Shown here: piece after piece, positions 2,985-33,646 of the stretch
How positions within the stretch are numbered: the first letter of the stretch is position 1
Layout of the letters: each line of letters opens with the position of its first letter
Virus record (IMG/VR): IMGVR_UViG_3300033148_006253
Coordinates: 1 to 36,277 of that record
Source of the DNA: a virus
Strand: one strand, 5' to 3'
DNA length: 36,277 bases
Program-made: the position numbers and the translations under genes
The notes under the pieces: model-generated
Told to the model about the DNA's origin: nothing
Database searches by the model: none
What the model saw: the letters and a program-made list of their open reading frames with translations, nothing else

Positions 2985-3427
2985 CGAAAAAGCAGGCGTC
3001 GTTTTGGATGAGCAGATATTGCCGATTGCGGGATGCTTGGGAATACTGCAAAAGATATGCGATAGGTATTCAACGGTTTTCGAGAGTAGAAGATTTATTT
3101 GTTAAGTGCTGTACTTGCGGGAAGGTTTTGCCGTGGTACAGGACGGATGCCGGACATTACATCGGCAGAGGAATGAGGGGAAGTAGTGGAGCATATTTCG
3201 ACGAAAGAAACGTACACGCGCAATGCAAACAATGTAACGCCTTCAAAGGTGGAGCACCGCGGGAGTATGAAGATTATTTGCGAAAAAAATATGACAAAGA
3301 AGACGGAGATGATATTATCAATACTTTATGGGTGGTTCATCAAACACACAATCAACCTGCACCTGGTATTATTGGCTTATATTACAAAGAAAAGTACGAA
3401 AAATTGGTTAGAGATTTGGGGTTTTGA
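2981..3427 (+). CDS. NinG/Rap-like recombination endonuclease
   Basis: The product is 148 residues. Pattern C-x2-C (C43, C46), GHYIGRG with H59, FDERNVHAQC and C82-x2-C85 followed by NAFKGG matches the lambda NinG (Rap) family. These zinc-binding, HNH-like structure-specific nucleases act on recombination intermediates in the RecA/Red pathway. ATG 2981 overlaps the previous stop (ATGA) and has AAAGG nine bases upstream; an upstream GTG would lengthen it by seven residues. The exonuclease and RecT at 31.8-33.6 kb are plausible partners. The family call is from motif recall. Confidence 0.8.
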   Translation: MTKKQASFWMSRYCRLRDAWEYCKRYAIGIQRFSRVEDLFVKCCTCGKVLPWYRTDAGHYIGRGMRGSSGAYFDERNVHAQCKQCNAFKGGAPREYEDYLRKKYDKEDGDDIINTLWVVHQTHNQPAPGIIGLYYKEKYEKLVRDLGF

Positions 3428-3475
3428 ACATTCGTTTTTTTTAGAGTGGAGCAAAGTGGTTGAAAGTGGAGTAAA

Positions 3476-4279
3476 ATGGAAAACTATACCAAGCTATACA
3501 AAAGTCTCATAACGTCAACCGTTTGGCAGGAAAATCACACGACACGAATATTGTGGATTACGATGTTAGCATTGAGTGATGCCGAGGGAATGGTTGAAGG
3601 CTCTATTCCGGGCCTTGCAAGGTTGGCGGGGATAACCACCGAAGAATGTGTGGATGGCTTAGAACGGCTTAGCAGCCCCGATAAATACAGCCGAACACAG
3701 GAGCACGAGGGGCGGCGTATTAAAGCGGCGAATGGCGGTTGGATAATACTTAATAGGGGCAAATACAGAGACAAACCTAACAGCCGAGCCGAGTATTATC
3801 GGCGGTGGCGACAAAACAAAAAGAACAACAAAAGTGCAACAAAAAGCGTTGCGCGCAACACGAATGATACACAGATAGAGGAAGAGGTAGAGGAAGAGGT
3901 AAACAATAATATAAATATTAATGACAAAAAAAATCGGACAATTTTCGATAATGCCCGCAAAAAATATCCCGGAGCCAAAAGAGGAATAGACCCGGAATGG
4001 GACTATTTTGTATCAATTTGTAAAAAATATAAATTAAACATATCGAAAACCGTCGCGAATATTGTTATAGGCGTAGATAACTTAATAAACTATCGAACAA
4101 AAGTTCAAAAAAATAATGCAGTAGGCGGGAATACATTTCTGCCGCCACCGAAGCATTTCAAAACGTGGATTTACAATCAATGTTGGACCGAGGAATTTCC
4201 AGAAATATCGGAACCTAAAACTCAAGCCCAAATATTAGCAGAAAAGCGAGAAGCTTACGAAAAGAAAAAAAACGAATGA
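3476..4279 (+). CDS. Phage replication initiator-like protein (winged helix plus C-terminal domain)
   Basis: The 267-residue protein has an N-terminal domain (about 5-95: KLYKSLITSTVW, ILWITMLALSDAEGMVE, IPGLARLAGIT, SSPDKYSRT, EGRRI, GGWIILN, KYRD) that I recall from phage replisome organisers of the lambda O/DnaD-like type, a winged-helix origin-binding domain. A low-complexity linker rich in E and N (EEEVEEEVNNNININ) leads to a C-terminal domain ending PPPKHFKTWIYNQCW, as in proteins that contact the helicase loader. GGAG precedes ATG 3476. The next-but-one gene may be the helicase loader. No origin iterons were recognised inside the gene. Confidence 0.72.
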   Translation: MENYTKLYKSLITSTVWQENHTTRILWITMLALSDAEGMVEGSIPGLARLAGITTEECVDGLERLSSPDKYSRTQEHEGRRIKAANGGWIILNRGKYRDKPNSRAEYYRRWRQNKKNNKSATKSVARNTNDTQIEEEVEEEVNNNININDKKNRTIFDNARKKYPGAKRGIDPEWDYFVSICKKYKLNISKTVANIVIGVDNLINYRTKVQKNNAVGGNTFLPPPKHFKTWIYNQCWTEEFPEISEPKTQAQILAEKREAYEKKKNE

Positions 4280-4307
4280 TTGACGCAAGAAGATATTATG
4301 AAAGTGA

Positions 4308-4535
4308 ATGAGAATGATTATTCGAGTCTTTAAGATGAAAGAAAATGCCACTGACGCCCAATGTCAAGCGCTCTCTGAAAAATTGGATTATCATGGCAAA
4401 CTTGTGTGCGACAATGAAAAAACAAAAGAGATTATTGCTCAATTTGACGATGAACTTGACTTGCTTGCATTTCAGGTTGCCATTGGTGCGGTAACGATTA
4501 GCACGGTCAAAGTCCCGAAAGACAATATCAAATAA
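4308..4535 (+). CDS. Hypothetical protein (75 aa)
   Basis: Alternative starts are ATG 4308, 4314 and 4329. The product is soluble, with LSEKLDYHGKLVCDNEKTKE and DDELDLLAFQVAIGAVTI. No family is recognised and the Shine-Dalgarno sequence is weak. The position between the replication genes makes a replication-module role possible but unproven. Confidence 0.5.
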   Translation: MRMIIRVFKMKENATDAQCQALSEKLDYHGKLVCDNEKTKEIIAQFDDELDLLAFQVAIGAVTISTVKVPKDNIK

Positions 4536-4547
4536 AAAGACCGCAAC

Positions 4548-4994
4548 GTGAAAAATCCACAGCAATACTTTGACGACGAGATTTTACCCCGATGGCCGGA
4601 GTGGCAGCCAACAGCACAGCAGGCGAATGATTGGTATAAATTGATTGCGCCGTGCCGGTTAAAAGATGTCGAAATGGCTACTACCAAATTGGCTTACGAA
4701 TGTGAGTTTAAGAAACCCTCCTTGAAAGTGATGAAACGCCTGCTAAAAGATTGTTATATTGACGTAAGCGAATATCGCAAAGAAGCATATCTAATTGAAC
4801 AAGAGACCGGTCAAAAAGCAACAATCATTTTAACAAACAAACAACCGTTTTCTGATGATTTATTAACCGAAATGGCAATACACGAAGCGGGCAAAAGAGG
4901 AAAAATTTATGGCGGCAAATGGATAGCTTATACAAACATTACGTGGGGCGAAGCAATGAAAATATCAGACGATATTCAAAGAAGTAAAAAATGA
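4548..4994 (+). CDS. Hypothetical replication-module protein, possible helicase loader
   Basis: The product has 148 residues from GTG 4548. The N-terminal 60 residues (ILPRWPEWQPTAQQANDWYK, LIAPCRLKDVEMATTKLAYE, KKPSLKVMKRLLKD) have the spacing of a small helical domain similar in style to helicase loaders such as G39P, with WY in the second helix and a proline before the last helix. The C-terminal half is unrecognised. Its place right after the initiator-like gene supports a helicase-loading role, but the similarity is only impressionistic. It overlaps the next gene by ATGA. Confidence 0.5.
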   Translation: MKNPQQYFDDEILPRWPEWQPTAQQANDWYKLIAPCRLKDVEMATTKLAYECEFKKPSLKVMKRLLKDCYIDVSEYRKEAYLIEQETGQKATIILTNKQPFSDDLLTEMAIHEAGKRGKIYGGKWIAYTNITWGEAMKISDDIQRSKK

Positions 4995-5227
4995 AATACA
5001 AAATCCTCAACGGACGTTATCTAAAAAAGCGTCGGCACAAAATAATGTGTTGTTTGGCTTGCGGCAGAGACACACAATCATCTTCTGGGTTGTGTTCAAA
5101 TTGTAGAGGATTTGGTTCTTTCCACTCAACGTCTATTAGAGAAAACAAGGATAGAAAATTAGCAGATAACGAAACACATACATTTGAATCTCAATATGAC
5201 CTCGACACAGACGAGGATTGGCTATGA
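4991..5227 (+). CDS. Small zinc-finger protein (78 aa)
   Basis: ATG 4991 overlaps the preceding stop. A basic start (KYKILNGRYLKKRRHK) is followed by IMCCLACGRDTQSSSGLCSN and a further Cys: two C-x2-C pairs about 13 residues apart, a compact zinc-ribbon pattern. The tail is acidic (YDLDTDEDWL). It is probably a nucleic-acid or protein-binding accessory factor. It overlaps the methyltransferase start by ATGA. Confidence 0.6.
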   Translation: MKYKILNGRYLKKRRHKIMCCLACGRDTQSSSGLCSNCRGFGSFHSTSIRENKDRKLADNETHTFESQYDLDTDEDWL

Positions 5228-14322: not shown

Positions 14323-15480
14323 ATGATGGGGTTTGATAGAATTGGCTTATTCACAGATTCACACAAGGCCGATGTTGATAGTACGGATAGACGTATGAGG
14401 TATCGATTAAGTGGCCCCAGATTTTACAGCGAAGCCGACGATGATATAGAAGAAGCCTGTACTGAGTTTAATAATGATTGTGATGTTGTTGTTGAGATTG
14501 GCGATTTTAACGATTTGCATTCTGACAACAGCGTTCACGAAGACCCGCCAAACACCAATACCCATAATACAGGTGCAGAAGGAGAGGCTATATTAGCTGC
14601 TGTCGAGACAAGTTTTGCGACATTCACAGGTCCTCGTTATCACGTTATAGGTAACTGGGATATGTATGATTTTGATTTTCAAAACCCTGCTGATTGGTTT
14701 AAGCACATCCGTAACGGCACAAGAAACCCAGAGACAATCACCGAAATTGCTGCAACAACTTATAATGATATGGATGGCAATTCGAAGGCAGCTCGATATT
14801 ATGCCTTTGAATGTCCAAATGGGACAATAGGAATTGTGCTCGATACGACCGGCAAAAGTGCAGATGACCCTGAACATTACGCAAACGAGGATACTGCTAA
14901 AAGTGTTAGTACCAGTTATGCTTATATTCCTGCCACGCAGAGAACATGGCTGGAAAATACTTTAGCCGCTCATACAGGAGTTCCCATTGTTGTTTTCTGT
15001 CATTATTGGCTGTATCCAGATGTGGGAGGTTACTTTCAATGTATAAATGCCAGTGCAGTAAGAGCGATTCTCGAAGCATACAATACTGCTCGGATAGCAG
15101 CCGGACATAAAGGGAGAGTTCTTGCAGTTTTTAGCGGACATCATCACCCTGGAACCAAGGGATGGTGGAGGGATGTGGATGGACAAGACCCTGTCAATTT
15201 TATTGAAGGTACAACAGACCCAGAAGGTCATATATTTGGAGTTGAGCATAATGGCATTAAGTATTTCAATCTGAGAGGTCAGATAGTTGGTTGGGGTGCT
15301 GATTCAGGTGGAGCGACTGATGATGGTTCAGGTGGTGAGGCTACACCTGCAAATTCTTTTTATAAAGCTATTGTCGGTGAATTTGTTAAAGATGTTTATG
15401 ATATAAAAGTAATTGGTTATGGTGCTAATCCTATCGGCGAAAGCAAGTCCAGTCAGCAATACTTTTTAGGAACTACATAA
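14323..15480 (+). CDS. Calcineurin-like metallophosphoesterase in the virion gene block
   Basis: The 385-residue protein carries the dimetal phosphoesterase motifs in order: DSH (D12, H14), GDFND (D61, D64), GNWD (N111), VFCHYW (H227) and SGHHHPG (H273, H275). The usual GNHD is GNWD, losing the histidine often credited with leaving-group protonation; some phosphodiesterases also lack it. The substrate is unknown (nucleotide, phospholipid or cell-surface phosphodiester). ATG 14326 is an alternative start. Being between capsid-associated and connector genes suggests it is carried on or in the virion. The C-terminal 80 residues after GQIVGWGADS are Gly-rich and end in a small beta domain that may anchor it. 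Confidence 0.8.
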   Translation: MMGFDRIGLFTDSHKADVDSTDRRMRYRLSGPRFYSEADDDIEEACTEFNNDCDVVVEIGDFNDLHSDNSVHEDPPNTNTHNTGAEGEAILAAVETSFATFTGPRYHVIGNWDMYDFDFQNPADWFKHIRNGTRNPETITEIAATTYNDMDGNSKAARYYAFECPNGTIGIVLDTTGKSADDPEHYANEDTAKSVSTSYAYIPATQRTWLENTLAAHTGVPIVVFCHYWLYPDVGGYFQCINASAVRAILEAYNTARIAAGHKGRVLAVFSGHHHPGTKGWWRDVDGQDPVNFIEGTTDPEGHIFGVEHNGIKYFNLRGQIVGWGADSGGATDDGSGGEATPANSFYKAIVGEFVKDVYDIKVIGYGANPIGESKSSQQYFLGTT

Positions 15481-18422
15481 TGAAACAGTTAGCGATTGCT
15501 AATGAAGACACATACGATTTGAATGGTGCCGGATTGCCTGGTGCTATGATAAAACTTGATGGAGATTCACTTTCTTGGACAGATTCTGGTATTGCACATT
15601 GGATGGTAGTTTTTTTAGAAATAGGAAGTACAAGTAACGCATTGAGCGGTACTGGTAATTTAACCATAACACCAAAGATTGGCCTAGGTTCACTGAGTGT
15701 AAGATCTTTGATAAGTCATGTTAAAACGTGTGTTATAGATGCAACAAGAGTGAAATGGTCAACCGACCCATTTCCTCTAACAGCGAACCAAAATTTTCTC
15801 AAATTTTATGTATATTCCGATAACGTCAATGATGTGGAGGTAAGTGTCATCGCAACATTGATAGAGGTTGCTTCTTTTGATAGTAATGGTCGAGTCGATG
15901 TGGGGAAAATGCTGGGAACCGCTGTTACTCTTGGCGGAGCGGGAAGTGATAAACTCGATGTTAATGTTAATGATTGGAATGATGTTACCGCAAAATCAAG
16001 TGCAAGTGATTATCCACAAGTTGACGTAGTTAGTGTTGGCGATGAAACACCAACGACTTTAACTGATATAAAAAATGCGGTCAATAGTGCGGTTTCACAC
16101 ATAACCAGCGGAACGGCGGCAATAAATACGACTGCGATTAGTTCGCCTGATGGCTTCGTTATCACTAAAGGGACGAATGAAGTTAATAATGAAGATTCAA
16201 CGCACGAAGAAAATGAAACTTTTCATAGTTTAGAAGACGACAGCGGTGATACAGACGCTTACTATATATTCAACGTCGGTGGCAATGGCGTTCCTGTAAG
16301 CATTATATGGATTGGTTATGCACAATCGAACAATGATTCGTATGATGTCTATGCTTACAATTTCAACGCCACGACGTGGGAGCAGATTGGGACAATTGCA
16401 GGACAGAACGGAACCGATACTATCGCAAGAACCTTCTGGTTGACAAATGCACAAGTGGGTTCAGGAGAGAATTTAGGAAAAGTCTATTTCAGATTTGTAA
16501 GTTCGAACGGAACTAAATTTGCAACTGATAGAGTTCTATGCTCATATTCGATAGTTACCACTTCGGTCGGTTATGCTAACGGTTCGGTTTGGGTTGATAC
16601 GAATTTGAGCAATACAAATACCGAGTCTTACGTTGACGGAACGGCGGATAATCCGGTCAGCACGTGGGCGGCGGCATTGACGATTGCCGGTAATATGAAT
16701 ATGAAGAATTTTAATCTTATCAACGGCTCGTCGGTAACAATGACCGGCAGTTGCGATAATTATACGTTCTTGGGCAGTGATTATAATTTGGCTTTGGGCG
16801 GTCAATCCTTTGAAAACACACACATCCAAGACGGTCATATTTCAGGTACAGGAACTTCAGGTTCGGGCGAGCTACATATTATCAATTCTTCAATCGGCGA
16901 TTGTACGTTAGGGAAATTTCAATTCAGAAATTGCGGGCTGGAAGGCACAATAACAATAGGCTCTGCGGATTATAGCGTGATGGATTCTTGCTTCGCAGCC
17001 GATGATTCAGGCAATCCGCCGGAAATTGATTTTGATGATAATGCGGCAACTGTTTGCTTGCGCAATTATAACGGCGGTATAAAGATTAAAAATATGGCCG
17101 CCGGCAGCAAATTTACAATTCAGGGCAACGGCAAAGTTACCATAGACAGCACGTGCGATTCCGGCGGAACGATTGGCATAAACGGCAATATCACAAAGAC
17201 TGATAATGTGTCGGGCGGATTCAGCGGCACATTGACCGAAGATGCGAGAATTGATGTTACGCAGATTGAAAATGCAGTATGGGATGCGACCGCGAGCGAC
17301 CATACGAATTCAAATTATTTCGGCGGATATACGAATGATATTCTGGGATACACTGCCGTAACTGATGCTATTATACAAAGTATGCCAAATCTGAAATATT
17401 TGGTTGACCACGCTGTGGACCCGACGAGGGTCGCTGACAATTCTATTATCGCAAAAATGGTATCGAAAGGAGCAACCGCTGACTGGGATGATTTTGTAAA
17501 TACGACCGATTCGCTTCAGGCTATTCACGACGCACAATTAACAGCGACAAATGTCAGCAGTGCCGTTAATAGTGTGCTTAATACGGCGATACCCGGCAGC
17601 CCAACGGCAAACTCTATAAACGAAAGAATCAAAGCGATTGACGACAAATTGCCTTCGGCTGATTATTTGTCCGGTACTTCAGAATCGGATGGCGGATTCT
17701 GCGACGCCGATAAAGCCGATATAAATGAACAATGTGATACTGCTTTAACGGATTATGACGGGCCGACTAATGCTGAAATGGAAGCAAGAACACTGCCAAG
17801 CGATAATTACTTCGACCCGACGACCGATACGGTTGCTAAGGTAACATTGGTCGAAACAACAACGACCAATACAGATATGCGTGGAACAGATAGTGCGGTT
17901 TTGGCGGCGAGTGCGAGGGCGTGGGTAGGCGAAATTGAAGGTGCAAGCTTTGCTACCGGTACTGACAGCTTACAGGCGATTCGTGATAGAGGTGATGATG
18001 CTTGGATGGGTTCGGTGGCATATATCGGCGAGACTTCAGCCGCTTCGGTTGTAAGTGATTCGGTATTTACAATTCATAGCTTCGATGGCATTAGTACGCA
18101 GAATGGGTTTTACGACGATGCCTTGATTCTTGTTAGGGATAAAGACGACACCGACCGAATTGCAATAAGAAGAATCTCAAACTATGATTCTTCTAAACAA
18201 ATAACGGTTGACGCTGCGATTCCTTTTCCGTCAGGTTTAGGCGTGGGCGATACTGTTCAGATTTTGCAAACCGGTTATGCGGGTGTAGGTGTTACAGGCG
18301 GCGATGCAACGGCGGCGAACCAGTTATTGATGATGGGTGCAGGTTATAGCTCTGCTTCACATTCGTTAAAACAAATAAAAGAAAGTTTGAGTGGTGCGGC
18401 GGGTGCACCGAGTTTGGAGTGA
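15480..18422 (+). CDS. Large beta-helix virion protein (putative head fibre)
   Basis: The 980-residue, Ser/Thr/Asn/Asp/Gly-rich protein has several zones. Residues about 1-130 form a beta domain. A block from about 360 to 590 starts SVWVDTNLSNTNTESYVDGT and continues with irregular strands (NFNLINGSSVTMTG, FRNCGLEGTITIG, GKVTIDSTCDSGGTIGING) typical of a right-handed parallel beta-helix. A helical linker from about 600 contains IENAVWDATASDH and NERIKAIDDKLP. A C-terminal beta domain (DALILVRDKDDTDRIAIRRI) ends it. I recall the same beta-helix block in phage proteins encoded between capsid and connector genes. A role in surface decoration or attachment is inferred. ATG 15480 overlaps the previous stop (TAATG). 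Confidence 0.7.
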   Translation: MKQLAIANEDTYDLNGAGLPGAMIKLDGDSLSWTDSGIAHWMVVFLEIGSTSNALSGTGNLTITPKIGLGSLSVRSLISHVKTCVIDATRVKWSTDPFPLTANQNFLKFYVYSDNVNDVEVSVIATLIEVASFDSNGRVDVGKMLGTAVTLGGAGSDKLDVNVNDWNDVTAKSSASDYPQVDVVSVGDETPTTLTDIKNAVNSAVSHITSGTAAINTTAISSPDGFVITKGTNEVNNEDSTHEENETFHSLEDDSGDTDAYYIFNVGGNGVPVSIIWIGYAQSNNDSYDVYAYNFNATTWEQIGTIAGQNGTDTIARTFWLTNAQVGSGENLGKVYFRFVSSNGTKFATDRVLCSYSIVTTSVGYANGSVWVDTNLSNTNTESYVDGTADNPVSTWAAALTIAGNMNMKNFNLINGSSVTMTGSCDNYTFLGSDYNLALGGQSFENTHIQDGHISGTGTSGSGELHIINSSIGDCTLGKFQFRNCGLEGTITIGSADYSVMDSCFAADDSGNPPEIDFDDNAATVCLRNYNGGIKIKNMAAGSKFTIQGNGKVTIDSTCDSGGTIGINGNITKTDNVSGGFSGTLTEDARIDVTQIENAVWDATASDHTNSNYFGGYTNDILGYTAVTDAIIQSMPNLKYLVDHAVDPTRVADNSIIAKMVSKGATADWDDFVNTTDSLQAIHDAQLTATNVSSAVNSVLNTAIPGSPTANSINERIKAIDDKLPSADYLSGTSESDGGFCDADKADINEQCDTALTDYDGPTNAEMEARTLPSDNYFDPTTDTVAKVTLVETTTTNTDMRGTDSAVLAASARAWVGEIEGASFATGTDSLQAIRDRGDDAWMGSVAYIGETSAASVVSDSVFTIHSFDGISTQNGFYDDALILVRDKDDTDRIAIRRISNYDSSKQITVDAAIPFPSGLGVGDTVQILQTGYAGVGVTGGDATAANQLLMMGAGYSSASHSLKQIKESLSGAAGAPSLE

Positions 18423-18425
18423 TAT

Positions 18426-19610
18426 ATGGCTTGTGCAGATTTAGCGATTTTAGGTCAAAAACTTACATTTACTCTTAATATCAAAGATTCCAACGGTACG
18501 CCGGTTGACGCTGATTCGGCTCCGAGTTATTCGGTTTATGAAGATGAAACCGGAACCGCAATACTTAGCGGCACTATGACACTGCTCGACGATGCAGGAA
18601 CGACCGGGTTCTATTCCGAGCAGTTAGATATAACATCGGCTAACGGATTCGAGCGGTATAAATCATATTCGATTCGTTCGACGGCAACAATATCGGGGAC
18701 AGATTATACGCATGTCGATTCTTTTTTGTGCTTGGGTGGCTCTGATACTTTCACGGCGACAACCGGAGCTTTGACGACTTATGCTAATTTGATTAGCTAC
18801 GCGGATATAGCCGAAGGAACAGATGAAACGTTACTTACGGCCTTAATCAATCGCGCTACAAGTGCAATTCAAAAATACTGCGACAGGACATTTATTTCGG
18901 CAAGTTATTGTGAGTTTCACGATGGAGATGGAACAACTGATATTTTAGTCGATGAATATCCAATTATATCAGTTGAGATGTTAGCGGTCGGAAGAATTGA
19001 CGCTGTGGCGTTAAAGAACACTTCGGCTGATGCCTATAATGCTTATGTTCAAGTTGATTCGACTGATATGAAATTGATTGTATCGGGCGGAACGAATGCC
19101 GGAACGAGTACTTTAACATTGGGCGATTATTCGACACTGAATGCTCTTATTACTGCAATAACCGCCTTAGACAAAGGCTGGTCGGCAAGTTTGCAAACAA
19201 GCATTTATTCAAATTGGGGGCCGAGTGAGTTATACCCGATTGATGGAGCGGGATGTTTGTCAAATAGTACCGTAGGTCAATCGAATATAGCTTATTTACA
19301 AATTCCCAACGCACCGGAATATAATTATAGAGTGCAAAAAGAGACAGGTATTATAACGAGAAATTTGAGCTTTCCAAAAGGCATTCAAAATATAATGGTA
19401 AAATATGCCGCAGGCTACGAAACAACGCCGGCGGATTTGGAGCAGATATGTATAGACCTTGTACTTAACTGGTACTATGCGAGAAAAAGAGAAAAGGGAT
19501 TGTTGAAGGAAAGAATCGGCGATTATTCTTATGAGGTACAGGCGAATACGAAAGGAATGCCGAACGATATTAAAAATAGATTAGTTTCATGGCAGAAGAA
19601 ACCGTTATGA
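18426..19610 (+). CDS. Head-tail connector (HK97 gp6-like) with an N-terminal Ig-like domain
   Basis: The first 110 residues of this 394-residue protein (LTFTLNIKDSNGTPVDADSA, SVYEDETGTAILSG, GFYSEQLDITSANGFERYKS) form an Ig-like beta-sandwich usually encoded as a separate small phage protein. From about residue 115 (LISYADIAEGTDETLLTALI, NRATSAIQKYCDRTF) begins the adaptor of the gp6/gp15 type that binds beneath the portal. Inserted beta strands and a final helix (LEQICIDLVLNWYYARKREK) complete it. At 394 residues it is about four times longer than HK97 gp6. The order before closure and gp10-like genes supports the call. Confidence 0.75.
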   Translation: MACADLAILGQKLTFTLNIKDSNGTPVDADSAPSYSVYEDETGTAILSGTMTLLDDAGTTGFYSEQLDITSANGFERYKSYSIRSTATISGTDYTHVDSFLCLGGSDTFTATTGALTTYANLISYADIAEGTDETLLTALINRATSAIQKYCDRTFISASYCEFHDGDGTTDILVDEYPIISVEMLAVGRIDAVALKNTSADAYNAYVQVDSTDMKLIVSGGTNAGTSTLTLGDYSTLNALITAITALDKGWSASLQTSIYSNWGPSELYPIDGAGCLSNSTVGQSNIAYLQIPNAPEYNYRVQKETGIITRNLSFPKGIQNIMVKYAAGYETTPADLEQICIDLVLNWYYARKREKGLLKERIGDYSYEVQANTKGMPNDIKNRLVSWQKKPL

Positions 19611-19939
19611 GTATCTCAAGTTTAATGACTGAGACAGTTACTGTTCAATCGCTAACGACTTCGCAAAACGATATGGGTGGGGTTTCTAAAACATTTGAGA
19701 CCCGAATAGCTTCACTGCCTTGTATGATATGTGAAAAAACAGTTAGCGAGGTTGACCAGTTCGGCAAAAGGACGGCAAGAAACGCAATGATGTTATATTG
19801 TGATTACAATACGACGAGCGCGGCAATTGACGTAAAAGATAGAATTATCTGGGGTTCGCGAACATTTGAGGTTCGTCAGCCTTATAACCCGGCTGGCAAA
19901 GATGTCCTTTTACAAATTGAAATCGAGGAAATAAGTTGA
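19607..19939 (+). CDS. Head-closure (head-tail stopper) protein
   Basis: ATG 19607 overlaps the previous stop; ATG 19589 is possible. Features of the phage head-tail joining family (PF05521, SPP1 gp16/HK97 gp7-like) are visible: LMTETVTVQSLTTSQNDMGG, VSKTFETRIASLPCMI, GKRTARNAMMLYCDYNT, DRIIWGSRTFEV and a final L-strand. It plugs the connector after packaging and forms the tail docking surface. The 110-residue length is normal. Confidence 0.82.
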   Translation: MSISSLMTETVTVQSLTTSQNDMGGVSKTFETRIASLPCMICEKTVSEVDQFGKRTARNAMMLYCDYNTTSAAIDVKDRIIWGSRTFEVRQPYNPAGKDVLLQIEIEEIS

Positions 19940-20385
19940 ATGATTTACGCGTAAAATGGTATGCCCGCGAGTTTATGACTTTGGCGACGAAAGCGAATAT
20001 ATCCGCTATGAAAAAATCAGCGATTCACGTTGAAAGATATATAAAAACTCACTTTACATCACCCGGAGCGGGCAGAGCTTATAAACGTGGGTCAAAGATT
20101 CATAGAGCTTCGTTGGCAGGTCAGCCGCCTGCGGTCGATACAGGAGTTTTGCAAGCTTCGGTGGGGCATAAAGTTATCGACACAGGCGCTGTTGTAATAG
20201 GTGAGGTTGGCACGGATATAGACGCAATGAGACAGCACCCCAGATTTAACGTTGGTTCGGATGTCAACTATGGATTATATTTAGAGTTAGGTACAAACAG
20301 AATGCAACCAAGACCGTGGCTGCGGCCGGCCTTGAAAAAAACAAAAAAGCAGGTCGAAAAATTCTTTAAGGATGCCAACAAATGA
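19936..20385 (+). CDS. HK97 gp10-like neck/tail-completion protein
   Basis: TTG 19936 overlaps the preceding stop and has GAGG eight bases upstream. The 149-residue product shows the gp10-family layout: a basic helical N-terminus (VERYIKTHFTSPG), ASLAGQPPAVDTGVLQASV with the GxPPAvdTG.L..S motif, GTDVNYGLYLE-like sequence (SDVNYGLYLELGTNRMQPRP) and WLRPALKK. It works at the head-tail junction during tail completion. Length and context are standard. Confidence 0.87.
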   Translation: MNDLRVKWYAREFMTLATKANISAMKKSAIHVERYIKTHFTSPGAGRAYKRGSKIHRASLAGQPPAVDTGVLQASVGHKVIDTGAVVIGEVGTDIDAMRQHPRFNVGSDVNYGLYLELGTNRMQPRPWLRPALKKTKKQVEKFFKDANK

Positions 20386-20795
20386 TTGACGATTTATGTA
20401 AGGCAATTAAAGATAGATTCGACAGCTCCGCAGGTGCTTCTTTGAGAGCTGTGCTTGCGGGCGGATTGTGGTTTGTGCAGGCAAAACAGAATGTATCGCA
20501 GCCTTACGCGATATTTACGTGGTTAGGTTCGACGCCGAAAGATTATATGGGTTCGGGAACAACAAATAAATATGAGATTGCCGAAATACAATTTGATATT
20601 TTTTCAAAAGCCGAGGATGGCGGAACGGTGCTTACTTCGGCGGTCGATTTACTTCAAAAACTATACGACTGGTGTAATCTGTCAATCAGCGGCTATACAT
20701 TTATTGCGTTCGAGAGAACCGGAACATCAAGCGTTCAATATGTCGATGATATTTGGCAGGCGACTATAAATTATAAGGCGTGGTTCGATGGCTGA
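20382..20795 (+). CDS. Tail terminator/completion protein (DUF3168/gp17-like), first copy
   Basis: The 137-residue product has IDDLCKAIKDRFDS, AVLAGGLWFVQAKQNVSQPY, AIFTWLGS, a KYEIAEIQFDIFS strand and a C-terminal block SAVDLLQKLYDWCNLSISGY...YVDDIWQATINYKAW. This is the alpha/beta fold of DUF3168 tail terminators that cap the tail tube and join it to the head. The gene overlaps both neighbours. The next gene ends with a homologous domain. Confidence 0.8.
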   Translation: MIDDLCKAIKDRFDSSAGASLRAVLAGGLWFVQAKQNVSQPYAIFTWLGSTPKDYMGSGTTNKYEIAEIQFDIFSKAEDGGTVLTSAVDLLQKLYDWCNLSISGYTFIAFERTGTSSVQYVDDIWQATINYKAWFDG

Positions 20796-21867
20796 TGATT
20801 ACGCATTGAGATTCAAAGGAACGACGGGACATGTGCTGATAGAAAATGCTCCCGATATAGTTTTTACGGGATATGCCCATTATTTCACGATTGAGTTCAT
20901 AGCAAGAACTTCTTACGGCGGGACGATTTTCGACTCGTGGGAGACAGAAAATCATAGAGGTTTTAAGATTAGATTGAACGATATTGGGCGACCGCACATT
21001 TTATTTCAGCCGATAAATATGGTGCCTGTTTTTCAATGTAACATATTAGGCGACTATCTTGCCGACACTTGGTATCACTATGCTCTAACATTGACTTATC
21101 GAACTATAAGATTTTATGTCGATGGGGTACAAAAACAATTAGACATCGACGGCGGAGTCTGGCAGAAAAATATCGGGAGTGGCGCTCCTCTTACTATTGT
21201 GTCAGACAATAAATATATAGGAGTTAACAAACTGATTCCATATCCGAGGGATTATTTCCAGGGTGATATTAAAATGCTGGGTTATTATACAAGCACTGCT
21301 TTGACTTCGGGAGATATTGCCAATAGATATGCCACCGGTTATTTTACGGGCAGTGAAACTGGTTTATCCTGGGCGTCGAATTTTAATGACGGAGAGGGTA
21401 CTTCTGTTACAGACTTAGTAGAAAACAATAATGCTACAATCAATAGTTTGCAGTATGTAAGCTGGTTAGATTTGACGCCGGACGTGCCGGCTGAATTGTT
21501 GCAACAAAGAGTAGTTACGGCGATTAAAGAAAAATTCGATGAGACGAATTTTACAAATCTGAATAGCTTATATTTTCAGGACGCACCGCAATCTACTGAG
21601 CCGAATTATGCGGTCTTTTATTGGGTGCATTCTGATATTGAAACTGATAGCGGATTAGAAGCAATTGAGATACAGTTCAATCTTTATGTTGGTGCGATTA
21701 GCGATTTAGGTACAAGTGTTGATGAGTTTCAAAATACTTTTGATTGGTGCAATTTGAATGTGCCGGGTTATAACGCAATAAAAATGCAACGGCAACGAAC
21801 GCTAAATGTCGGTTATGTCGATGACATTTGGCAAATTACGATAATTTATGAATTATTGATAAGTTAG
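20788..21867 (+). CDS. LamG-like domain fused to a second tail-terminator domain
   Basis: Residues about 1-205 of this 359-residue protein form a concanavalin/LamG-like beta-sandwich (YFTIEFIARTSYGGTIFDSW, GFKIRLNDIGRPHILFQ, TWYHYALTLTYRTIRFYVDG, FQGDIKMLGYYTS, NFNDGEGTSVTDL). Residues about 225-359 repeat the preceding gene: VVTAIKEKFDE, YAVFYWV, AIEIQFNLYVG, SVDEFQNTFDWCNLNVPGYN and YVDDIWQITIIYE align with its AIKDRFD, YAIFTWL, EIQFDIF, DWCNL..GY and YVDDIWQATINY. It is evidently a tandem duplicate that gained an N-terminal carbohydrate-binding-type domain. It may decorate the tail neck. ATG 20788 overlaps the previous gene. Confidence 0.77.
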   Translation: MADDYALRFKGTTGHVLIENAPDIVFTGYAHYFTIEFIARTSYGGTIFDSWETENHRGFKIRLNDIGRPHILFQPINMVPVFQCNILGDYLADTWYHYALTLTYRTIRFYVDGVQKQLDIDGGVWQKNIGSGAPLTIVSDNKYIGVNKLIPYPRDYFQGDIKMLGYYTSTALTSGDIANRYATGYFTGSETGLSWASNFNDGEGTSVTDLVENNNATINSLQYVSWLDLTPDVPAELLQQRVVTAIKEKFDETNFTNLNSLYFQDAPQSTEPNYAVFYWVHSDIETDSGLEAIEIQFNLYVGAISDLGTSVDEFQNTFDWCNLNVPGYNAIKMQRQRTLNVGYVDDIWQITIIYELLIS

Positions 21868-21878
21868 GAGATATAAAA

Positions 21879-22244
21879 ATGGCTGTTTATCACGGCAAAA
21901 GTGGCTCTGTAACTTTCCAGGGAACTGTCGCCAAAATTACACAATGGACTTTGAACACAATTGCCTCTATCGCAGACTCGACGGCGATGGGGGACGGATG
22001 GGAAACGCATGAAGTCGGATTGACGGACTTTAATGCTTCAATAGAGGCAATAGCTCAATCGGCGACAAGTTATATCACGGATTATATAGGTGTATCAGCC
22101 ACATTAAGATTGACATGCTCGGCAGGATATTTCGAGGGTAATGCGATATGTAATAGTCTTACCGAGACTGCAGGTATTGAAGATGTCGGCAAGTTATCTA
22201 TGTCATTTGAAGGCAACGACGCTGATGGAATAAGCTTTACTTAA
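21879..22244 (+). CDS. Tail tube-like protein, first of two paralogues
   Basis: The 121-residue beta-rich product starts MAVYHGKSGSVTFQGTVAKI and includes WTLNTIASIADSTAMGDGWE, THEVGLTDFNASIEAIA and LSMSFEGNDADGISF, the pattern of small phage tail-tube proteins (signal strand, ADSTAMGD loop, final F-strand). GGAG precedes ATG 21879. The next gene encodes a related protein with the same YHGK opening and strand order. It lies immediately before the tail chaperone, the usual place of the major tail protein. Confidence 0.67.
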   Translation: MAVYHGKSGSVTFQGTVAKITQWTLNTIASIADSTAMGDGWETHEVGLTDFNASIEAIAQSATSYITDYIGVSATLRLTCSAGYFEGNAICNSLTETAGIEDVGKLSMSFEGNDADGISFT

Positions 22245-22262
22245 AATTAAGGAGTCAAAATT

Positions 22263-22640
22263 ATGGCAAGTGAATATCATGGTAAAACCTGTAATGCAAC
22301 GTGGGACAGCGAGATTGCAGCCGTGTTAGGTTGGTCGGTAACGGTAGAATGTTCTACCGCAGAGAGTACGGCTCGGCATGATACTAAAACCGGTCGAACG
22401 CGAGAAGTTGGTACATATCGAGCTTCAGCGACGGTAACGGCGAGGGCGAATGGCGATTTTTCTCCTGCCGCCGGGGATAGCTCTACGCTTGTATTGGAGC
22501 GTGGCGTAGCTACTGCCAATAAAGGTTACAAAGGCACAGCAACGTGCACAGGCGCGACAAGAACGGTAACAAAAGATGACGTCGATGCGGTCGAATATTC
22601 GTTTACGTTTAACGGAACAGTAAGCAACGATTTATCTTGA
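22263..22640 (+). CDS. Tail tube-like protein, second paralogue
   Basis: The 125-residue product starts MASEYHGKTCNATWDSEIAA and follows the layout of the upstream tail-tube-like protein: WSVTVECSTAESTARHDTKT for the strand-ADST loop, REVGTYRASATVTARANGD for THEVGLTDFNAS, and EYSFTFNGTVSNDL for the last strand. Identity is low but the order of elements is the same. AAGGAG precedes ATG 22263. Either it is the true major tube protein and its neighbour a minor ring, or both build the tube. Confidence 0.62.
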   Translation: MASEYHGKTCNATWDSEIAAVLGWSVTVECSTAESTARHDTKTGRTREVGTYRASATVTARANGDFSPAAGDSSTLVLERGVATANKGYKGTATCTGATRTVTKDDVDAVEYSFTFNGTVSNDLS

Positions 22641-23121: not shown

Positions 23122-23318
23122 AAACATCGACTGCAATTGCCTTGATTAAAAGATTTTTCGGATTTAGTATAGAAGAACTCCGCGAGATGACTATTGAGCA
23201 ATTTGGTGAATGGGTCGAAGAGATGGAAAATATTTATGAATTAGAAGCGGGTCAAAACGAATCTATCGATGATGTACGAGCAAGGGTGGCGGCTGACCCG
23301 GCAGTAAGGATGCTATGA
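23091..23318 (+). CDS. Tail assembly chaperone, -1 frame extension (T part of G-T fusion)
   Basis: This frame is read after the slip at 23085-23091, giving a 211-residue G-T product starting at 22684 (136 plus 75 residues). The extension begins LNSEEKKKALKTSTAIALIK and continues RFFGFSIEELREMTIEQFGE, WVEEMENIYELEAG and ARVAADPAVRML. The short FGFSIEELREMTIEQ helix and final ADPAVRML are what tail chaperone extensions look like. It has no good start of its own. Its TGA (23316-23318) overlaps the tape measure ATG at 23315. Confidence 0.72.
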   Translation, partial: LNSEEKKKALKTSTAIALIKRFFGFSIEELREMTIEQFGEWVEEMENIYELEAGQNESIDDVRARVAADPAVRML

Positions 23319-25186
23319 CTTTAGGCGAAGCACGAGTTGCGATTAGAGCGGATTTGAAACCGCTTAGATGGGGGTTACGAACTGGGCTGAACATTGTTAA
23401 AAGCGGTATGAGAAAAATAGTTCGTACCGTGAAGATTCTATCGGCGGCAATGGTTGCGTCGATTACGGCCTCTATGGTTGTATGGTCAAAATTTAGAAAA
23501 CAGCTCGCTATGGTTAGCACAATGCTAACAGCCGAAACAATGCCACTGATGAAGGAATACTCGGAAGGCATATTGCGTTTAACGAAGCAAACAGGACAAA
23601 GCACAAAGACGTTATCAAAAGGTCTATATGATATTTTATCGGCATCGATAGATACATCGAAAGCATTGGACGTCTTAGAAGTTTCTGTCAAAGCAGGTAT
23701 CGCAGGCATGTCTGAGGCGGGAGTTGCAGCCGATTTAATTACGACCATACTTAATTCCTATCAGATGAAAGCAGAACGTGCGGCAGAAGTGAGTGATAAA
23801 TTGTTTTCGACAATCAAAAGAGGCAAAACCACTTTTCCAGAATTAGCTAATTCGTTGGGAATGGTTACTTCGACAGCCGCTTTGGCTGGAATGAATTTAG
23901 ATGAATTGCTTGCAATAATTGCAACATTAACGAGAGGCGGTATTAAAACATCAAGAGCTGTGTTTGCAATTAACAATGCTTTGCGTGCATTTTTGTCGCC
24001 CGGAGATGCGGCTAAAGATATGGCAAAGAAAATCGGCGTCGAATTATCGACAGCAACCTTGAAAACCGAAGGTCTTGTCGCGAGTATTAAGAAATTCAAA
24101 CGTGCTTCCGCCGAACAATTAGCCGTTATCTTTCCAAATATCAGGGGTTTCAAAGCAATCGCAGGCGCATTGCAGGACACTATTGGGCTTCAAAAAGACT
24201 TTACTTTAATATCAGAAGAATCAGCGGGGACAACTTCTGACGCTTACGAAAAAATGACTCAAGATTTAGGTTTTCAATTTTCGAGAGCAAAGGCTTATAT
24301 CAAAGCGGTGGCAATTTCATTCGGAGATGCAGTAGGACCGCGTGTACAAAGAATGTTTGATGCTCTTATCAAGAAAATTGGCAATTTTGACAAATGGATA
24401 AAAGAAAATGAGGAGATTATCAATTATTGGGCGGCTGTCGCAGAAGAAAAAGTTGGAGATGTGATTGCTTACTTTGAAAATTTGCTCGCCATAATAAAAG
24501 ACAAAGACTGGATGGCAGCATTCAATAAACTGGGTTTGGATATTTCAGAGATGATGAAAAAGGCTTTTGTTTATTTAGAGCCTAAAGCAATAGCTTTGGG
24601 TAAAGCTATGGCGAAAGGTTTTAGTGAGGCAGTAAAAACTGGTGCCAAAGGTTTAAGAGAAGAACATCCAGTTGCGACAAATATAGCAGCAGGTGCGGGG
24701 ATTGCCTGGCTCTCCAGTAAAATAATCAAATTGGGCAGAGATTTAACGAAAGCTACCTCAGCAATCGGCAAATCGGGAATAGGCCTGGGCAAGACAGGAA
24801 TGGCGATAGGAGCCGAGGTGGGACTTGCGGGGGGGGCTACATTCGCTGGTTATGTGGCAGCACTTAGCTTGATTGCGATTAATATTAAAAAAATTACGAC
24901 TGAGTTAAAAGAAATTGTTCCTCTTGGCAAAAGAATATTGGAAGATAAATATCCGGGTTGGAAAAGTGGTGTAAAAGGTAATATTGAAGATGTTATATCT
25001 GATTTTAGAACTGGTAAGTATAGTCCTTTTGGGCAAACTATTTTTTCGGGGATAACTGGGCGATTAACCGGCAAAATCGAGGATAATGTTGCTCGGTCAA
25101 TTGAGAAACAAACAAAACTGCAAGAAGCGATGTTGGCCGAGCTGAGAGCAACCAGTCAAAATAATATGGTTGGAGCGGAATTCTAA
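23315..25186 (+). CDS. Tape measure protein (TP901 type)
   Basis: The 623-residue helical protein fixes tail length and is ejected with the DNA. The TP901-family core lies at about residues 60-300: FRKQLAMVSTMLTAETMPLM, EGILRLTKQTGQSTKTLSKG, LYDILSASIDTSKAL, ELANSLGMVTSTAALAGMNL, DELLAIIATLTRGGI, LSPGDAAKDMAKKIGVELST, FPNIRGFKAI. Two hydrophobic segments follow near 475-540 (ATNIAAGAGIAWLSS; GATFAGYVAALSLIAINI). At the usual about 1.5 angstrom per residue the tail would be roughly 90 nm, an estimate only. TAAGGA precedes ATG 23315. Confidence 0.93.
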   Translation: MTLGEARVAIRADLKPLRWGLRTGLNIVKSGMRKIVRTVKILSAAMVASITASMVVWSKFRKQLAMVSTMLTAETMPLMKEYSEGILRLTKQTGQSTKTLSKGLYDILSASIDTSKALDVLEVSVKAGIAGMSEAGVAADLITTILNSYQMKAERAAEVSDKLFSTIKRGKTTFPELANSLGMVTSTAALAGMNLDELLAIIATLTRGGIKTSRAVFAINNALRAFLSPGDAAKDMAKKIGVELSTATLKTEGLVASIKKFKRASAEQLAVIFPNIRGFKAIAGALQDTIGLQKDFTLISEESAGTTSDAYEKMTQDLGFQFSRAKAYIKAVAISFGDAVGPRVQRMFDALIKKIGNFDKWIKENEEIINYWAAVAEEKVGDVIAYFENLLAIIKDKDWMAAFNKLGLDISEMMKKAFVYLEPKAIALGKAMAKGFSEAVKTGAKGLREEHPVATNIAAGAGIAWLSSKIIKLGRDLTKATSAIGKSGIGLGKTGMAIGAEVGLAGGATFAGYVAALSLIAINIKKITTELKEIVPLGKRILEDKYPGWKSGVKGNIEDVISDFRTGKYSPFGQTIFSGITGRLTGKIEDNVARSIEKQTKLQEAMLAELRATSQNNMVGAEF

Positions 25187-31773: not shown

Positions 31774-32676
31774 ATGATAACTGTAAAACAAAAAGAGCAG
31801 CGAAAAAATCATATCGGCGGCTCGGATATAGCCGCTATATTGGGGCTTAGCCCATTTGCGAATGCGTATGATATTTGGCTCCAAAAGACCGGGAAATTAG
31901 AGACGACCGATGAGCCAACTGACGCTATGGCGGTGGGCAATTTTCTTGAAAAGGGTGTACTTGATTATGCCGAATCTAAATTAGGACCACTGAAAAGAAA
32001 TCAATACCGCTCGGCCAAACACACTGGATTACCATTGGCTGTTAATTGTGATGCGATTGTTCTTGAGACCGGTGCTCCGGTTGAGGCTAAGACATCACAA
32101 TTATTTTTTCCGTATGGCCAGGGGCTATGGGGTGAACCGGGAACCGACGCTGTACCACCGGCCACGGTAGTCCAATGCCACGCACAAATGATATGCGTTG
32201 ATTGCGATTATTGTAACGTGGCGGCGTTAGTGGGCGGTAAAGGTTTGCTTATGTATATTGTGTCGAGAGATGCTGAGATTGAATCTATCATTCGACAAAC
32301 GATTAAAAAATTCTGGGAAAAAAATGTTTTAGCGGACATACCGCCTGAAGATATTATGCCTTCGATGCATTCGTTAAAAAGAATCAAGCGGGAGCCGAAG
32401 TCAATCGTTGATGTGCCGAAGGATTTAGTTGAAAAATGGCTTGAGACTAAAGAGGCGGAGGCAAAAGCAAAGAAGGCCCGGATTAAGGCGCAAGTTGAAT
32501 TATTGACTTATCTTGGTAAGGCCGAGGCGGGGCGATATGATGGTGGCCTGATTACTTATTTCGAACAGAGCAAGCGAGGTATTGACACAAAAAAATTAAA
32601 AGAATTACAGCCGGATTTGGCTGAGAAATTTGCAAAAATTAGTAAGTATCGAGTTTTGAGAAACAAAAAAGGTTAA
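31774..32676 (+). CDS. YqaJ-type recombinase exonuclease (lambda Exo-like)
   Basis: The 300-residue protein has HIGGSDIAAILGLSPF (residues 13-28), the acidic E60 in NFLEKGV, D93 in VNCDAIV and the E104-x-K106 pair in VEAKTS, the YqaJ/lambda Exo nuclease signature. It digests duplex DNA 5' to 3' and leaves single strands for annealing. A charged helix (EAEAKAKKARIKAQVELLTY) and a short C-terminal domain (KRGIDTKKLKELQPDLAEKF) follow. Genes for RecT and associated phage proteins come next. The leader TTGAAAGGGCAA precedes ATG 31774. Confidence 0.9.
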   Translation: MITVKQKEQRKNHIGGSDIAAILGLSPFANAYDIWLQKTGKLETTDEPTDAMAVGNFLEKGVLDYAESKLGPLKRNQYRSAKHTGLPLAVNCDAIVLETGAPVEAKTSQLFFPYGQGLWGEPGTDAVPPATVVQCHAQMICVDCDYCNVAALVGGKGLLMYIVSRDAEIESIIRQTIKKFWEKNVLADIPPEDIMPSMHSLKRIKREPKSIVDVPKDLVEKWLETKEAEAKAKKARIKAQVELLTYLGKAEAGRYDGGLITYFEQSKRGIDTKKLKELQPDLAEKFAKISKYRVLRNKKG

Positions 32677-32686
32677 GGAGCGAATA

Positions 32687-33646
32687 ATGGCAAAGAATAA
32701 TTTAGCACGTCGAAAACAACAATTGAAAGGATTGTTGAGCGAGGAGAATTTCAAAAAGAGTTTGCTTGATGTTTTGCCGAAGCATTTGACGCCCGAAAGA
32801 GTGGTTAAGATGGTATTGTTGGCGGCGTCAAGACAGCCGAGAATCTTCGAGTGCACGGATGCTTCTATCATCAAAGCAGCCATTACAAGCGGTCAGTTAG
32901 GTTTGGATTGTTCGGGAACATTAGGCCAGGCATATTTAGTACCGTATTTCAACGGCAAGATTAAGAAATATGAAGTTCAATTTATTCCCGGCTATCAGGG
33001 TTTAATCTCGCTGGCGAGAAGATCGGGTGAGATTCGTCGGATTGAGAGCCGAATCGTTTGTGAGAATGATAAGTTTGAGTTCGAATATGGCTTTAACCAG
33101 AATTTGAGACATATTCCTAACTTGCAAAACCCCGGACCGATGTCGTGTGTTTATGCAATTGCCGAATTCGTGGATGGTTCTAAACAGCTTGAAATTATGA
33201 CCGCGAAACAAATTGAAGGAATCAAAAATCGCAGTAAGGCAAAGAATGCCGGCCCATGGGTTACTGATTATGGCGAGATGGCACGCAAGACGGTTGTGCG
33301 TAGATTGTTCAAATATTTGCCTTGTTCGACGGAATTAGAGGTTGCGATTGAGGCGGATAATCAGCAATATGACTTTGAAACGCAAACGAATATCTCGGCA
33401 GGCATTGAAGGCACAAAAAAACAGCTTAAAAAGGTGGTCGAATCCAAAGAGGTAAAAGACGAAACGAACAATGATGTTGATTCAGAGACTACAACTGAAA
33501 CTCCGGTGGACGAAATTCCTGATAATGAAGTTACATTGAAATATCATTGCGTCAAGTGTGAGCATGATTTCGATGAGCCTAAAAAATCAGGGAAAGCTAT
33601 ATTGTGCCCGAAATGTTTGAGCGACGATATAATAAACAATCCGTAA
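32687..33646 (+). CDS. recT: RecT single-strand annealing protein with C-terminal zinc ribbon
   Basis: The 319-residue protein has the RecT core: HLTPERVVKMVLLAASRQPR, SIIKAAITSGQLGLDCSGTL, GQAYLVPYFNGK, VQFIPGYQGLISLARRSGEI, WVTDYGEMARKTVVRRLFKY, LPCSTEL. It anneals complementary single strands exposed by the upstream exonuclease. After an acidic linker (KDETNNDVDSETTTETPVDE) the end is YHCVKCEHDFDEPKKSGKAI and LCPKCLSDDI, a two-knuckle zinc ribbon not normal for RecT. The ribbon may recruit a partner or DNA. AAGGAG precedes ATG 32687. Confidence 0.95.
   Translation: MAKNNLARRKQQLKGLLSEENFKKSLLDVLPKHLTPERVVKMVLLAASRQPRIFECTDASIIKAAITSGQLGLDCSGTLGQAYLVPYFNGKIKKYEVQFIPGYQGLISLARRSGEIRRIESRIVCENDKFEFEYGFNQNLRHIPNLQNPGPMSCVYAIAEFVDGSKQLEIMTAKQIEGIKNRSKAKNAGPWVTDYGEMARKTVVRRLFKYLPCSTELEVAIEADNQQYDFETQTNISAGIEGTKKQLKKVVESKEVKDETNNDVDSETTTETPVDEIPDNEVTLKYHCVKCEHDFDEPKKSGKAILCPKCLSDDIINNP

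Follow-up and report, generated by a model that had tools for sequence, protein, structure and literature searches.

A tail terminator duplicated in tandem, with its second copy fused to a LamG-type domain: a possible neck decoration in an uncultivated phage

What would a phage do with two tail terminators encoded side by side, the second of them enlarged by an N-terminal domain of another kind? The question is raised by a bacterial virus whose source is environmental DNA alone. The sequence analysed, called here the window, is the entire IMG/VR record IMGVR_UViG_3300033148_006253 (36,277 bases). The neck and tail genes concerned are listed below with the evidence for each assignment.

19589..19939, + strand: head completion or stopper-type protein (HCP); PF05521, E 1.6e-8
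19936..20385, + strand: Neck1, tail completion protein; phrog_5, E 1.3e-13
20382..20795, + strand: TT1, predicted tail terminator of canonical size, 137 aa; AlphaFold2, VIA-align, weak PF11367 match
20788..21471, + strand: LamG/ConA-like N-terminal part of LamG-TT2, residues 1-228; PF13385 match over residues 11-178
21472..21867, + strand: TT2, predicted C-terminal terminator domain of LamG-TT2, about residues 232-359; paralogy with TT1, AlphaFold2
21879..22244, + strand: major tail protein, copy 1 (MTP1); phrog_1407, E 4.6e-9; own Shine-Dalgarno-like site
22263..22640, + strand: major tail protein, copy 2 (MTP2); 32% identity to copy 1, E 2e-10
23315..25186, + strand: tape measure protein (TMP), 623 aa; phrog_991, E 8.2e-50

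The frames of TT1 and of LamG-TT2 (20788-21867, 359 aa) are both unbroken at these coordinates. The LamG-TT2 gene starts before TT1 ends and is without a clear Shine-Dalgarno site, in contrast to MTP1 and MTP2, where Shine-Dalgarno-like sites are present. Because of this overlap and of the missing site, translation of LamG-TT2 is probably coupled to that of TT1, an arrangement which fits a part needed in few copies. Among the window proteins that were scanned, none was recognised as a tail sheath.

Outside this region, the window carries a gene for a family 2 glycosyltransferase near the start of the record (772-2319, 515 aa; PF00535, E 1.6e-21) and, at 31774-33646, a YqaJ-type recombinase nuclease adjoining a RecT that may bear a zinc ribbon at its C-terminus.

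Paralogy and fold of the terminator domains

A sequence-only reading of the locus had proposed that the C-terminal domain of the 359-residue protein repeats TT1. This was borne out: TT1 aligns with residues 242-355 at 38% identity (129 columns, E 1e-22), and the two motifs it had named, DWCNL..GY and YVDDIWQ.TI.Y, are included in the alignment. When 14 window proteins were compared all against all, TT1/TT2 and MTP1/MTP2 were the only strong matches; from this and from the E value, chance similarity between TT1 and TT2 was rejected and, as judged by sequence, the two are paralogues. The boundaries within the fusion could be refined, with the LamG-containing part ending at about residue 228 (1-228) and the terminator domain covering about 232-359.

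In profile comparisons, TT1 matched PF11367 at E 0.0011 (19.5 bits, under the cut-off of 24.5) and TT2 gave no match to it; six of the nine A6 members matched the same family with E values of 0.1 or lower, down to 1.4e-10. Structure prediction with AlphaFold2 gave a mean pLDDT of 89 for TT1 and of about 90 for the TT2 domain, and both models conform to the terminator fold, in which two helices flank a four-stranded antiparallel sheet. Compared with solved structures by VIA-align, TT1 came closest to a gene transfer agent terminator chain (Z 15.9), with T5 p142 at 13.3 and lambda gpU at 11.1; for TT2 the best match was the phiCD508 neck (Z 14.7), with T5 p142 at 13.1 and lambda gpU at 11.4. Nearly all of the best solved matches of the two proteins are phage-tail terminators or tailocin caps. 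The predicted C-terminal fold is thus that of a terminator and not an unrelated one, and assignment of both models to this fold is well supported. Some loops of TT2 are shorter than those of TT1.

TT1 and TT2 resemble lambda gpU, SPP1 gp17 and T5 p142 in predicted fold and in being encoded after Neck1 and before the major tail protein. Those three, however, are single small proteins, whereas the window has a second copy preceded by a LamG part of ~228 residues.

The LamG domain and a second copy of the fusion

The N-terminal part had been taken for a LamG-like sandwich, and the profile search agrees with the LamG assignment: residues 11-178 match Pfam Laminin_G_3 (PF13385) with 36.7-37.6 bits (E 5.6e-9), above the curated cut-off of 27.6. 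That this part is a LamG-type domain is therefore well supported at the level of the profile match. The AlphaFold2 model of residues 1-231, a part for which only two sequences could be aligned, has a pLDDT below 50.

A second copy of the fusion comes from an 18,168-base contig, IMGVR_UViG_3300035698_002773 (L017 hereafter), found with a two-sequence profile of TT1 and TT2. Its gene order is that of the window, i.e. HCP-Neck1-TT1-LamG:TT2-MTP1-MTP2-chaperone-TMP, so that in both phages the terminator genes sit between the neck proteins and the major tail protein. The L017 fusion is unbroken, has the same junction and is 45% identical to the window protein from end to end. Its LamG part scores 26.5 bits against PF13385, just under the cut-off, and the residues common to the two LamG parts resemble the core motifs of the fold. 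Whether the fusion is one gene, or two joined by a sequencing error, had been a concern; its continuity in an independent contig settles the matter in favour of a single gene. An internal start giving TT2 alone was also considered and found without support, since neither phage has a Shine-Dalgarno-like site at an in-frame start close to the junction.

Identity between the window and L017 is 71% for the stopper-type protein and 67% for TT1, against 45% for both TT2 and LamG. The slower divergence of TT1 compared to TT2 is as expected if the former is a core part and the latter an accessory one. The Nei-Gojobori pN and pS values for the same pair of phages (0.24 and 0.75 for TT1, 0.34 and 0.75 for TT2, 0.40 and 0.81 for LamG) have pS near saturation and are only indicative; taken as such, they point to purifying selection on the LamG and TT2 domains. 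The two phages also share a large protein encoded between the capsid and head-tail adaptor genes, at 15480-18422 in the window (980 aa) and at 1075-2880 in L017 (601 aa); these relatives differ by about 380 residues and have no family match.

The same domain pair was thus found once more, in L017, but not in 50,697 phage records, which were scanned with exact short peptide patterns that can miss distant members; the fusion is known from two phages only. The pattern-based scan of those records, with the same limit as to distant members, detected no TT1 relatives either, and exact short peptide patterns, again liable to miss distant members, found no relatives in species genomes. PDB sequence searches with LamG and the terminators, and single-protein viral scans, returned nothing useful. 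As to the suggestion that such a fusion is undescribed, no description of a terminator fused to a LamG or laminin G domain was found in the open-access literature, but larger terminators with extra domains, e.g. PVC16, are already known (PMC11784142). Some predicted viral proteins resemble terminators of extra length, for instance A0A8S5QQ35 (385 aa). In Psychrobacter phage vB_PmaS_Y8A, considered as a possible further case, the ConA-like lectin and the terminator are separate genes and not a fusion.

History of the duplication

In L033, which is more distantly related, a single terminator immediately precedes MTP1 and MTP2, and LamG-TT2 is absent; L007, L009 and L014 each encode a single terminator and a single major tail protein. 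In a small tree, the TT1 and TT2 sequences of the window and L017 cluster apart from the L033 terminator (96/97), for which reason the terminator duplication is probably lineage-specific, having taken place after the split from L033 and before the window and L017 parted. The duplication of the major tail protein appears common to the window, L017 and L033 (90/86) and looks older than that of the terminator. The alignments behind these groupings are short and some branches long, so that the evidence is moderate. The idea that two major tail proteins require a second terminator is unsupported: with its two tail proteins, L033 makes do with one terminator, so a second tail protein does not call for TT2.

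Tandem paralogues of the major tail protein are found in the window (21879-22640), L017 (6411-7187), L033 (1992-2783), L024 (979-1830), L027 (154-1011), L023 (5945-7101), L026 (5216-6381) and L029 (5974-7096). The pair of the window, L017 and L033 seemingly has a single origin; that of L024, the members of which are 63% identical, is a separate duplication. In L024 a NUMOD3 / TnsA-like endonuclease gene (223-954), probably a homing endonuclease, separates the terminator from the major tail proteins. In L026 a gene for a PIG-L type deacetylase adjoins one for a group 1 glycosyltransferase (3342-5122), within the structural module and immediately upstream of the major tail proteins; L023 (4145-5934) and L029 (4071-5836) have similar genes.

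A possible role at the neck

The reading that we tentatively favour is that of a duplicated terminator in which TT1 acts as the cap and LamG-TT2 as a decoration docked at the neck. After a lineage-specific tandem duplication, TT1 would have kept the ordinary tail-capping role and TT2, having gained an N-terminal LamG domain, would have turned to neck decoration. The terminator domain of TT2 would dock at the head-proximal end of the tail, either as a second stacked ring or in a mixed hexamer, and up to six LamG domains would face outward as an accessory means of attachment to surfaces, with glycans as the probable ligands. The paralogy, the two terminator folds, the LamG match, the conservation in L017 and the pN/pS values support this reading; the ring assembly of LamG-TT2, its neck position and stoichiometry, the outward display and glycan binding are what we infer. 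Of the sequence-only reading, the duplication and the fusion are well supported by sequence, by the terminator models, by gene order and by the second contig, and its neck ring of glycan-binding domains is the conjectural part. It may be, although we consider this somewhat less likely than not, that a siphophage-type virus here builds an additional terminator ring bearing lectin domains, or else a mixed hexamer, and so reuses the capping fold to hold adhesion domains as a collar at the neck. If so, the terminator ring, usually viewed as a minimal cap, can duplicate and become a surface-binding platform, the head end of the tail could hold an adhesion device, and LamG fused to a terminator fold provides a simple genetic signature to seek in other uncultivated phages.

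One point counts against a neck ring: the N-terminal fusion might hinder ring formation, because the T5 terminator, when tagged at its N-terminus, which is situated at the interface between subunits, remained soluble and monomeric (PMC11784142). This result calls for caution in assuming that TT2 forms rings like lambda gpU. The favoured reading is further weakened by the low-confidence LamG model, by the L017 LamG score just below the cut-off, by the near-saturated pS values and by the small number of phages, two, in which the fusion is known.

Carbohydrate-binding modules displayed around the neck are known from the neck passage structure (NPS) of lactococcal 936 and P335 phages (PMC6669499), and LamG-TT2 may work like these decorations, on a different scaffold. 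The likeness is confined to the proposed role. In the NPS protein a BppU-like domain at the N-terminus is followed by a coiled coil and then by a carbohydrate-binding module at the C-terminus, whereas in LamG-TT2 the module is N-terminal, is carried by a terminator domain and has no fibre; this domain order, LamG then terminator, led us to reject LamG-TT2 as an NPS protein. Within the reading that we favour, a LamG collar could perhaps be a way of decorating the neck that differs from NPS fibres. Surface-binding domains have likewise been added to known tail structural proteins, but there on the tube or baseplate and not on the terminator (PMC6669499). JBD30, which has a single major tail protein and lacks a terminator ring, was rejected as a parallel.

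A neck position is also compatible with a purely structural use, which we regard as rather unlikely: LamG would be a clamp or decoration stabilising the head-tail joint and would not bind glycans. Many LamG/ConA-like domains bind no sugar, and such sandwiches are widespread protein-binding modules. The same paralogy, fold and conservation evidence applies here, as does the resemblance of the shared LamG residues to fold-core motifs. However, LamG diverges faster than TT1 and the stopper-type protein, which is not what one would expect of a part constrained by its contacts with conserved rings.

Unlikely, too, is a division of labour in which TT1 caps the tube and a TT2 ring joins tail to head, or the reverse, with LamG incidental. 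The terminator fold is kept in both copies and paired terminators with distinct roles, T4 gp3/gp15 and P2 gpR/gpS, exist in myophages (PMC11784142). These systems and PVC16 resemble the window in having two terminators per particle or a terminator with extra domains, but they are contractile, and the extra part serves the sheath or repeats the terminator fold; here it is LamG-like, and with no sheath recognised among the scanned proteins, what calls for a pair in myophages is lacking. Moreover, a single terminator suffices in L033 and other relatives.

It is very improbable that LamG-TT2 acts away from the neck, whether at another site of the tail, as a factor in assembly or outside the virion: the shortened TT2 loops would agree with it, but the terminator fold is retained and the place of the gene between TT1 and MTP1, inside the neck and tail operon, is conserved in both phages. 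An artefact, be it an assembly error merging two genes or a chance similarity, can be dismissed in view of the paralogy and of the same unbroken fusion, with the same junction, in the independent contig L017.
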